A stretch of DNA of 32,982 nucleotides, taken from contig CACXCI010000045.1 of NCBI GenBank assembly GCA_902766105.1, positions 1-32,982 on the forward strand, read 5' to 3'. The DNA is from an uncultured bacterium (GTDB lineage: Bacteria > Cyanobacteriota > Vampirovibrionia > Gastranaerophilales > Gastranaerophilaceae). Of this stretch, positions 140 to 32,135 are shown piece after piece; positions within the stretch are counted from its first letter, which is position 1, and each line of letters starts with the position of its first letter. The notes under the pieces are model-generated. The model made no database searches. It was not told the DNA's origin and saw nothing but the letters and a program-made list of their open reading frames with translations. Position numbers and translations under genes: made by a program.

Positions 140-1389
140 TAGCCTGAGGGAAGGGCACTATTGCCCACAAAATCTGAGATGATATTTATTGTTGACAAAT
201 TCTTAGTATTATGTATAGCACCCCCATTTGAACTACTTGATATACCTGCGAACACTTTATTTTGAACATTTGACCCGTCTGTGGCAATTGTGTCGTTTAT
301 TCTTGTTTGAGTAATATCATATTCTGTCGGTTTGGTGTAAGTGTATGTGAAATATTTGTTCCACTCGTTCGCAGCGGGTACAGTGCCGTTATGAGGGGTT
401 TTAAGACGAATTGCTCCTGTGATATTATCTCCGCTGACTGTTACCTTTGACCCTGCGATATTGTCTGTCCAAGTGTAACCTGACACACCTTCTTCATTTG
501 TTTCTGTCCAAACCGTTTTACCTTTGTTGTGGTCTGCCTTATTCGGGTCAATTGTGATGTTGTAATAGTTTGTTGTAGTGCCGTCGTTTACTTTAACATC
601 ATAATTACTACTGCTTGCACCATCGCTTTGCAAATTAACCAATCTGCCCGCCTGATTCCACGCATAACCGCTCTTTGGTAGTTTGCTTGTATCAAAGGTA
701 TAATAGGTTGTCTCGTCATTGATAACCGTTTTAAATACCGCATTAGCTGCAGTCGCACCGGTCGAAGTCAACGCAACAGAAGTTGAACCCGAAAGATAGT
801 TCAACATATCGGCTTTTTCACTGCTTAGAGTAGTTGGAGTGGTATAATAGTATCTCTTACCATTAAACGCAACTACTGTCTTGCCCGTCAAATCCATTGA
901 AGGGTCTGTGATTTCTGTCAACGCATATGTTGTACCAAAATATGTGCTCGCTGTCGGAAGAAGAGTTACAGCATCAGACTGCATATCATCCAAGGTAGGT
1001 TTTAATTCACCAGCATACCCTGTTGGGATGCCCTTACGGGAAAGCACCCCACCTAACCTCCCCTCACTAGGGGAGGAAATATTATTTACCCCTGCCGCAG
1101 CACCGGTCAGAGAACCCCCTCTCCCTCCTAGGGCGAGGGAATTATTATTTATTGCTATTTCTAACGTATGCGAGGAATCCAGCTTATCTGCGTTCAATAC
1201 CAATTGGCGTGCTCCGGCACTTTCGCTACGGACAGCCATTGAATTAATTCGCTCATTTACATCAGCAAGCTCACTTGCACCTGCCGCACCAGACAAAAAC
1301 AGGGGTGCAAAAAGCGCTAATGCCAAGCTTTTAAACTTCGCCGTTCCAATACACTTGTCATCACTTGTTTCCAAGTACTTTTTTATCAT
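1..1389 (-). CDS. Pmp-like repeat adhesin/autotransporter, N-terminal part (runs off left edge)
   Basis: An uninterrupted 463-codon frame starts at ATG 1389 and leaves the window at base 1, so the C-terminus is unseen. GAGG lies about 7 bases before the ATG. The N-terminus has a charged stretch and then a hydrophobic run (SLALALFAPLFLSGAAGA), an extended secretion signal probably cut near residue 39. The last ~80 residues carry GGAI and FVGN motifs (GGAIHN, DFVGNS, GGAISN, NFVGNS, GGAISN) in ~38-residue units. These match the GGA(I/L/V)/FxxN repeats of chlamydial polymorphic membrane proteins, which form beta-helical surface passengers. Eight serines in a row end the visible part. Residues ~46-123 are encoded by the interspersed repeat family found between genes elsewhere in the window. 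A surface adhesin is inferred; a C-terminal beta-barrel would confirm an autotransporter. Confidence 0.8.
   Translation of the reverse strand, partial: MIKKYLETSDDKCIGTAKFKSLALALFAPLFLSGAAGASELADVNERINSMAVRSESAGARQLVLNADKLDSSHTLEIAINNNSLALGGRGGSLTGAAAGVNNISSPSEGRLGGVLSRKGIPTGYAGELKPTLDDMQSDAVTLLPTASTYFGTTYALTEITDPSMDLTGKTVVAFNGKRYYYTTPTTLSSEKADMLNYLSGSTSVALTSTGATAANAVFKTVINDETTYYTFDTSKLPKSGYAWNQAGRLVNLQSDGASSSNYDVKVNDGTTTNYYNITIDPNKADHNKGKTVWTETNEEGVSGYTWTDNIAGSKVTVSGDNITGAIRLKTPHNGTVPAANEWNKYFTYTYTKPTEYDITQTRINDTIATDGSNVQNKVFAGISSSSNGGAIHNTKNLSTINIISDFVGNSALPSGYAYGGAISNYANGEGTVSIGSIAGNFVGNSVSSSSSSSSAYGGAISN
1021..1252 (-). repeat. Interspersed repeat modules read in frame within the adhesin gene
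   Basis: This stretch aligns with intergenic repeats in the same window. Bases 1150-1252 match the inverted-repeat element at 2366-2455 (shared CCAGCTTAT... and CTTTCGCTACGGA blocks). Bases 1021-1150 match 2170-2235 and the ends of the two 233-bp units (GTTGGGATGCCCTTACGG, TTTACCCCTGCCGCAG, CACCGGTCAGAGAACCCCC). In the adhesin frame it reads KLDSSHTLEIA, then NNNSLALGGRGGSLTG, then SRKGIPTG, with no stop codon. The repeat identity is seen directly; insertion as a coding element is inferred. Confidence 0.8.
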
Positions 1390-6729: not shown

Positions 6730-6853
6730 ATTCACCCCTCCGCAGGGGAGAGGAAATTGTCATTCCGAACGTATGAGAGGAATCCAGCTTTTTATATCAA
6801 AATCATACCTCACCCTGCCCTCTCCTACTCTTTAGGAGAGGGAAAATGTCATT
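6730..6853. repeat. Interspersed repeat, left arm of inverted pair around the pilin gene
   Basis: It contains a CCCCTCCGCAGGGGAG hairpin and then the module GTCATTCCGAACGTATGAG...CCAGCTTTTTATATCAAAATCATACCTCACC plus a CTCTCCTA/TAGGAGAG hairpin. Bases 6759-6853 are the reverse complement of 7835-7930 with few differences. The plus-strand end, AATGTCATT, is followed by a linker and then the pilin promoter. Confidence 0.9.
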
Positions 6854-7795: not shown

Positions 7796-8112
7796 ATTTT
7801 CCTTGCAATTGCGACAGTCGTTACACTCCCTCGCAATGACATGCTCCCTCTCCTAAAGAGTAGGAGAGGGCAGGGTGAGGTATGATTTTGATATAAATAA
7901 GCTGGATTCCTCACATACGTTCGGAATGACATGTACCCTCCCTGATTAGGGAGGGTTAGGGTGGGTATTGACAGTCAATGGTATGTTTTTGATATAAAAA
8001 GCTGGATTCCTCACATACGTTCGGAATGACATGTTCCCTCAATACTAAACTGCTTTGCAATCATGGGGTAAGTACAAAACCTTGCTGTACTACTATGCTT
8101 CAATGATACGAC
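7796..8112. other. Repeat-filled space between convergent pilin and fliR genes
   Basis: No gene is present. The space holds the right arm of the inverted pair (7835-7930), a CCCTCCCT...AGGGAGGG hairpin (7936-7955), and a second, direct copy of the TATGTTTTTGATATAAAAAG / CTGGATTCCTCACATACG module (7980-8032). About 75 bases before the fliR stop (8035-8110) show no clear structure. Confidence 0.8.
7835..8032. repeat. Composite interspersed repeat, right arm of inverted pair plus extra copy
   Basis: Bases 7835-7930 are the inverted counterpart of 6759-6853. Bases 7846-7976 match 31984-32114 over 131 positions without net gap, so the whole composite unit is mobile or copied as a block. The CTGGATTCCTCACATACG module is then repeated directly at 8000. 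Confidence 0.9.
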
Positions 8113-31983: not shown

Positions 31984-32135
31984 CCCTCTCCTAAAGAGTA
32001 GGAGAGGGGTAGGGTGAGGTATGATTTTAATATACAAAAGCTGGATTCCTCACATACGTTCAGAATGACATGTTCCCTCCCTTGTTAGGGAGGGTTAGGG
32101 TGGGTATTGATAGTAGGTCGGCGTTGCTACGCTGA
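31984..32135. repeat. Composite interspersed repeat, copy of 7846-7976
   Basis: Bases 31984-32114 match 7846-7976 across all modules without net gap, with few substitutions. It then continues into the GTCGGCGTTGCTACGCTGAC palindrome, which at 2297 lies next to the same modules in the other orientation. Confidence 0.9.

Follow-up and report, generated by a model that had tools for sequence, protein, structure and literature searches.

Short palindromic repeats, probably inserted in frame, in a surface adhesin and in enzymes of a Gastranaerophilales genus

In a genus of Gastranaerophilales, presumably a gut lineage of non-photosynthetic Cyanobacteriota, we found short, hairpin-forming repeats whose usual place is between genes but which also occur within genes, with the reading frame kept. 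By sequence comparison, these in-frame additions reach a surface adhesin and about ten ordinary enzymes across the genus. The explanation that we favor, at a probability of roughly 87%, is that REP-type repeats were inserted in the manner of Rickettsia palindromic elements and were retained by selection in tolerant loops or in a linker. The adhesin would be one such site, and it is the weakest example of the genus-wide phenomenon.

The adhesin is encoded in the window (32,982 nucleotides), which is an entire contig (C45) of a metagenome-assembled genome of 1.89 Mb in 110 contigs. We call this source genome G000. We compared it with other members of its genus, in a set of 46 genomes (labeled G, with loci labeled L). 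The genus is known solely from metagenome-assembled genomes, and the public records that are homologous to the adhesin are from rumen and gut assemblies. In the source genome, copies inside genes were found by gene prediction and by comparing intergenic regions with each other. The census of repeats in this genome covered 606 kb of the ~1.89 Mb (32%), which was partly picked for its repeat content. The species tree was built from five concatenated proteins, and some of its deep nodes are weakly supported.

Repeats in the linker of the adhesin

The adhesin and its parts are (all on the minus strand):
1-1389: N-terminal 463 amino acids of a repeat-passenger, autotransporter-like surface adhesin; the start M is at 1389 and the gene is truncated by the contig end
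1276-1389: signal-peptide region, residues 1-38, MIKKYLETSDDKCIGTAKFKSLALALFAPLFLSGAAGA, from the translation, with a putative cleavage site
1153-1243: P1 palindromic repeat, decayed in-gene copy, residues ~50-79; its core (1152-1197) is dispersed
1116-1150: CCCTC..GAGGG repeat, in-gene copy, INNNSLALGGRG, at dispersed-copy depth
1090-1115: GSLTGAAAG segment, like a motif of the adhesin family; shared with the adjoining intergenic units and not dispersed
1043-1090: CCTCCCC..GGGGAGG hairpin repeat, in-gene copy, VNNISSPSEGRLGGVLS, with ~9-15 dispersed copies in the sample
1013-1042: RKGIPTGYAG, the family motif that precedes PTLDDM; matched only by the local copy at 2162-2190, by contig C30, and by homologous adhesins

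The related intergenic repeats of the window are (no strand assigned):
1620-1865: first 246-nt unit of a repeat cluster, 95% identical to 1927-2172; holds a P2 palindrome at 1654-1688
1927-2172: second 246-nt unit, with a P2 palindrome at 1961-1995, of the same family as inserts in ThiL, PdxA, and Nif3
2171-2236: intergenic copy, 97% identical to 1022-1087 of the gene
2364-2455: near-perfect palindromic P1 copy
6756-6790: P1 core, dispersed copy
7897-8027: P1 core, two dispersed copies (7897-7927 and 7999-8027)
32038-32065: P1 core, dispersed copy

The reading frame of the adhesin is open for 467 amino acids with zero stops, and every repeat junction is in frame, as the first-pass annotation had stated. 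The repeat-bearing linker sits between the signal peptide (upstream) and a conserved passenger domain (downstream). The adhesin has no match above the cut-offs of Pfam or NCBIfam, and its AlphaFold model (mean pLDDT of 43.5) is too poor for placing the linker.

The same annotation had equated residues 46-123 with the modules that fill intergenic space. This is right for three dispersed modules (~1043-1090, 1116-1150, and 1152-1197, as judged from copy depth), whose intergenic copies number about 15, 8, and 25, respectively, in the 32% sample. The CCCTC..GAGGG module (1117-1151) is 94-97% identical to 1812-1846 and 2119-2153. The P1 copy in the gene (1153-1243) aligns to 2364-2455 with a local score of 76.5, versus a maximum of 38.5 from 500 shuffles, and a part of it (1157-1185) also matches ~25 further intergenic loci of the sample. 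This P1 copy is 66-69% identical to the intergenic copies. Its predicted fold is at -21 kcal/mol, with no near-perfect hairpin, versus -45 kcal/mol for the intergenic copy. By its sequence, then, the P1 copy in the gene is an old and decayed one.

The rest of residues 46-123 is another matter. Matches to RKGIPTGYAG (1013-1040) and GSLTGAAAG (1090-1115) are confined to the adjoining cluster and to contig C30. The gene stretch 1013-1087 is 92% identical to 2162-2236 over 75 nt (97% over 2171-2236). Both segments resemble the conserved motif right before PTLDD in homologous adhesins (GGKLTGAAAPTLD, GITTGGAAPTPTLDD, and RTITGYAASITPTIDD). Because they are not dispersed and resemble this motif, they are probably the adhesin's own sequence, which would have been copied outward into the cluster (1620-2240).

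An open frame of 238 amino acids on the plus strand (1625-2341) is made wholly of the repeat cluster. It is probably spurious and is a trap for annotation. On contig C30 (L057, ~1690-2065), three tandem units of ~70 bp that are related to the window's sit just upstream of an ORF of the autotransporter type, which has no signal peptide and may be a truncated adhesin.

Homologs of the adhesin are present in 10 of the 46 genomes. None of them carries the same 78 residues, and their linkers are poorly conserved: each has another sequence, other repeat families, or is short. In RUG11158 (L003), the linker is SHPELVSGSNNNVTLNSFQGLSDGKNSKILNRVQNDRIF (SHPELVSGS...ILNRVQND), which is three REP units in one frame. 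In G026 (L004 and L022), it is RHSEGEARGISKFYPLNDG (RHSEGEARGIS), a 57-nt hairpin. The linker of G016 (L355) has VILNLIQDL and PSPEFVNSQGSLTNSTLSH, and also PSPEFVNSQGSLTNS; that of G064 (L367) has SRHSEALAEKS; and that of G035 (L023) is short, with no repeats. As had been proposed, the insert lies between signal peptide and passenger, in a segment that varies among the homologs.

Repeats inside enzymes

Within the source genome, we found in-frame repeats in RibD, a Nif3-like protein (at two sites), CoaBC, ThiL (two tandem units), PdxA, AcsC, and AcsD. In its relatives, we found them in PgeF, RibD, Nif3, ThiL, and IspE. (IspE was named from its sequence; in G016, one of its sites holds a P2 unit and a second site holds two REP units.) Wherever we could judge, the frame stays open across the insert: this includes RibD, PgeF, ThiL, PdxA, CoaBC, Nif3, IspE, AcsC, and AcsD.

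The enzymes that carry inserts appear to be complete. RibD, PdxA, ThiL, CoaBC, the Nif3-like protein, and AcsC from the source genome score above the whole-enzyme cut-off of NCBIfam with the insert present, and so does PgeF from G014. When aligned to proteins of known structure (PDB), three of them are interrupted exactly at the insert: in PdxA, the aligned parts to either side of it both adjoin chain residue 272; in ThiL, 61 residues of the query stand against 8; and CoaBC gains ~13 residues.

The DNA of these inserts matches the genomic repeats closely. Their cores of 27-35 nt have 0-3 mismatches to repeats elsewhere in the genome, and matches between in-gene and intergenic copies in the source genome have E-values of 1e-17 to 1e-20. 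A control with the reversed pattern gave 1 match, versus over 40 for the real pattern. In the 606-kb sample, 9 copies of the CGTC-type REP are intergenic and 5 are in genes; for the P2 palindrome, the counts are 3 and 4. P1 has 26 intergenic copies and a single in-gene copy, which is the one in the window's adhesin.

Empty orthologs and loops that are filled more than once

For five of the genes with inserts, we found orthologs that lack the repeat. The inserts in PdxA and in the source-genome loop of ThiL are each absent from 29 of 29 aligned relatives and are unique to the source genome. For RibD, 27 of the 30 aligned orthologs are empty, and the REP is found only in G000, G008, and the distant G060. 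Most orthologs of PgeF are empty as well; the REP is present in G014, G011, G002, and G016, and both G011 and G014 have sister species without it. In ThiL, at least three other loops differ among close relatives in what fills them; the inserts there include CHSEKAKRPKNL, HPELVSGS, and VILSDDE...ALRMTEAKNL. The last of these is an 87-nt hairpin in frame, which G012 has and G017 lacks; it is the one such insert by which these two proteins (93% identical) differ. The pattern of presence and absence across species suggests that the repeats are mobile.

As judged from the sequences, several loops were each filled more than once, by separate events in different lineages and in some cases with repeats of unrelated families. 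Separate gains are seen for RibD (in G000 and G008 versus G060), for PgeF (in G011, in G014, and in G002 and G016), and for site 2 of Nif3, where G000 has P2 and G031 has a REP. At the latter site, G008 has the REP-like sequence KLEIFKQVQD. No gene split by a repeat was found beside 88 repeat-bearing intergenic regions, a search of low power.

At site 1 of Nif3, a 27-nt REP (TGTCATTCTGAACTTGTTTCAGAATCT) is identical at 27 of 27 nt in seven species (L306, L307, L318, L323, L324, L327, and L329). These sequences are at odds with vertical inheritance and neutral synonymous drift, because all nine third codon positions of the REP are identical while the flanking third positions average 54% identity, and because the seven species fall into two clades of the tree, separated by relatives whose site is empty or whose copy is decayed. 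Repeated insertion, gene conversion, and selection at the DNA level are all candidate explanations.

A bolder reading, to which we give somewhat less than even odds, is that the genus has insertion hot spots. The enzyme loops and the adhesin linker would be refilled at the same positions by spreading repeats, the 27-nt element in Nif3 would be gained independently, or homogenized by gene conversion, in several lineages, and the traffic from repeats to proteins would be ongoing. If so, it could be traced between close species.

Coding capacity and mobility of the repeats

The REP unit in these genomes consists of TGTC, an 8-bp stem, a 5-nt loop, and a 3-nt tail (from the fold of TGTCATTCTGAACTTGTTTCAGAATCTA). 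TGTC is the main consensus of the tag, and some copies have CGTC or AGTC. It had been suggested that the repeats are specially competent to code for protein. This idea is not supported: the repeats have no more open frames than dinucleotide shuffles do.

RAYT-like Y1 transposases are present in 21 of the 46 genomes, and the source genome has three. At two loci (L237 on contig C32 of G000 and L238 on contig C72 of G014), inverted repeats of the GTAG type stand on either side of the gene (GGTAGACT..AGTCTACCCTAC and GTTGGGCA..TGCCCAACCTAC, respectively), which is a typical REPtron layout. None of the inserting REP families lies beside the RAYT genes at the loci in G000, G014, and G008, which have GTAG-type or other repeats. 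The RAYT-linked GTAG repeat of G000 has 12 intergenic copies and no in-gene copies in the 606-kb sample. With GTAG-type repeats as the flanks, RAYT is not supported as the direct mobilizer of the inserts. Among the few junctions compared, we saw neither an autonomous partner nor a clean target-site duplication.

Proposed mechanism and alternatives

We propose that several short and mostly palindromic families spread across the genus, presumably by transposition. These include the REP-type GTC-stem-loop-stem hairpins, the EFVNSQSSLTNS palindrome, and the CCCTC/GAGGG hairpins. Most copies would end up between genes, and a copy that disrupts a gene is presumably lost. Copies inside genes would be kept by selection only if they are a multiple of three bases, have an open frame, and fall in a tolerant segment, such as the adhesin's linker between signal peptide and passenger or an insertion-tolerant loop of an enzyme. 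The retained inserts would become new segments of protein, translated in the cell, and their residues may be neutral and decay slowly. The linker of the window's adhesin probably took up at least three repeats long ago, after which parts of it would have been duplicated into the adjoining intergenic cluster.

The repeats might instead have arisen in genes, so that the 78-residue segment is ancestral to the adhesin and the intergenic copies are duplicated fragments of it. In its favor, GSLTGAAAG and RKGIPTGYAG match the motif that precedes PTLDD and occur nowhere but next to adhesin-type genes (in the window's cluster and in the C30 cluster, upstream of the autotransporter fragment), and the match of 92-97% over 75 nt is a local one. 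But copies of the three dispersed modules are spread over many unrelated intergenic loci, and orthologs without inserts exist for unrelated enzymes. This alternative accounts solely for the local motif pieces and the cluster, and we consider it unlikely as a general account. It is far less probable still that the linkers and loops are hypervariable and drift freely, with any likeness to repeats being due to chance or to biased composition. The linker is indeed poorly conserved, and the decayed P1 copy is just 66-69% identical to its intergenic counterparts. However, P1 scores far above the shuffles, the reversed-pattern control points the same way, and the cores within enzymes are near-exact DNA matches with very low E-values; we rejected chance similarity on the shuffles and the exact DNA matches.

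Another alternative is that in-gene copies are kept for the function of the hairpin in DNA or RNA (transcript stability, or a site for a protein or for gyrase), so that the peptide is incidental. The perfect conservation at site 1 of Nif3, against 54% at flanking third positions, speaks for this. But other species have decayed copies or none at that site, and other in-gene copies drift, including P1 in the window and the Nif3 copies of G061 and G026. We give this about the same low odds as an origin within genes.

Relationship to known repeat systems

Rickettsia palindromic elements (Ogata et al. 2000, 2002) occur between genes and also in frame inside genes, as described in PMC10969869 and PMC3733652. 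The likeness noted in the first-pass annotation is supported: here too, short palindromes are dispersed between genes and lie in frame in unrelated metabolic genes, with several families per genome, and the sites are empty in relatives. Unlike in Rickettsia, the host is of another phylum, the units are 27-110 nt instead of ~150 bp, non-REP hairpin families are included, and separate insertions recur at the same loops; the likeness is one of behavior, and we claim no family assignment.

Di Nocera et al. (2013, PMC3733652) reported intragenic GTAG/CGTC REPs that keep the frame of the ORFs that hold them in Opitutus terrae, R. conorii, Thauera, and Xanthomonas. CGTC repeats have a stem of 8-9 bp, a loop of 4-5 nt, and a 3-bp tail, and they were reported in five phyla, with Cyanobacteria not among them; many of the intragenic REP targets in that study are genes for DNA synthesis and repair (PMC3733652). 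The repeats here have this geometry (stem 8, loop 5, tail 3) and, as is the case for CGTC repeats, have no link to a transposase in the checked loci. But their tag is mostly TGTC, and their targets are biosynthetic enzymes and adhesins. In-frame intragenic REPs were thus known beyond Rickettsia. The earlier statement that none had been described for this kind of organism holds for Melainabacteria and Gastranaerophilales in the literature that we searched; this covered few subscription journals, so the absence is weak evidence of novelty.

As in RAYT/GTAG REP systems, the genus has RAYT-like Y1 genes that are flanked by GTAG-type repeats (at the G000 and G014 loci). Unlike in those systems, the inserting families are other sequences, and the GTAG repeat of G000 is in none of the sampled genes.

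To our knowledge, the in-frame insertion of selfish repeats into proteins has mostly been seen as a trait peculiar to Rickettsia and its relatives, with scattered intragenic REPs elsewhere. Here, in gut bacteria of another phylum, several unrelated families are found in core biosynthetic enzymes and in a surface protein. Dozens of species, including a near-identical pair, vary in the loops that carry inserts and in the repeats that fill them. This makes it possible to test by comparison whether the insertions are neutral, adaptive, or ongoing. For annotators, sequences such as SHPELVSGS, KILNQVQND, PSPEFVNSQSSLTNS, and PHPNPLPKGEGE in such proteins are derived from repeats.

Other repeat-bearing genes

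We set aside GlyQ from the source genome (with CHSELGSES), whose copy is a C-terminal extension. We also set aside the prepilin leaders with repeats in G008, G064, and G001, whose true start codon is uncertain. In these prepilin-like genes (L118, L121, and L122 in G008, L097 in G064, and L351 in G001; KKxAFTLAEVLITLG), REP peptides make up much of the open frame upstream of the cleavage motif, and it looks as if the repeats extend the leader. In the source genome (L217, 1010-2886 of contig C44), adjoining genes that resemble the delta and gamma subunits of acetyl-CoA decarbonylase/synthase each carry a KILxxVQND repeat; the gamma-like subunit is also weakly similar to HgcA. And on contig C4 of G026 (L350), an AroE-like protein (recognized by eye) has a long N-terminal extension with a P2 palindrome in the frame of the opposite strand (EFVNEQSEFTNSRE).
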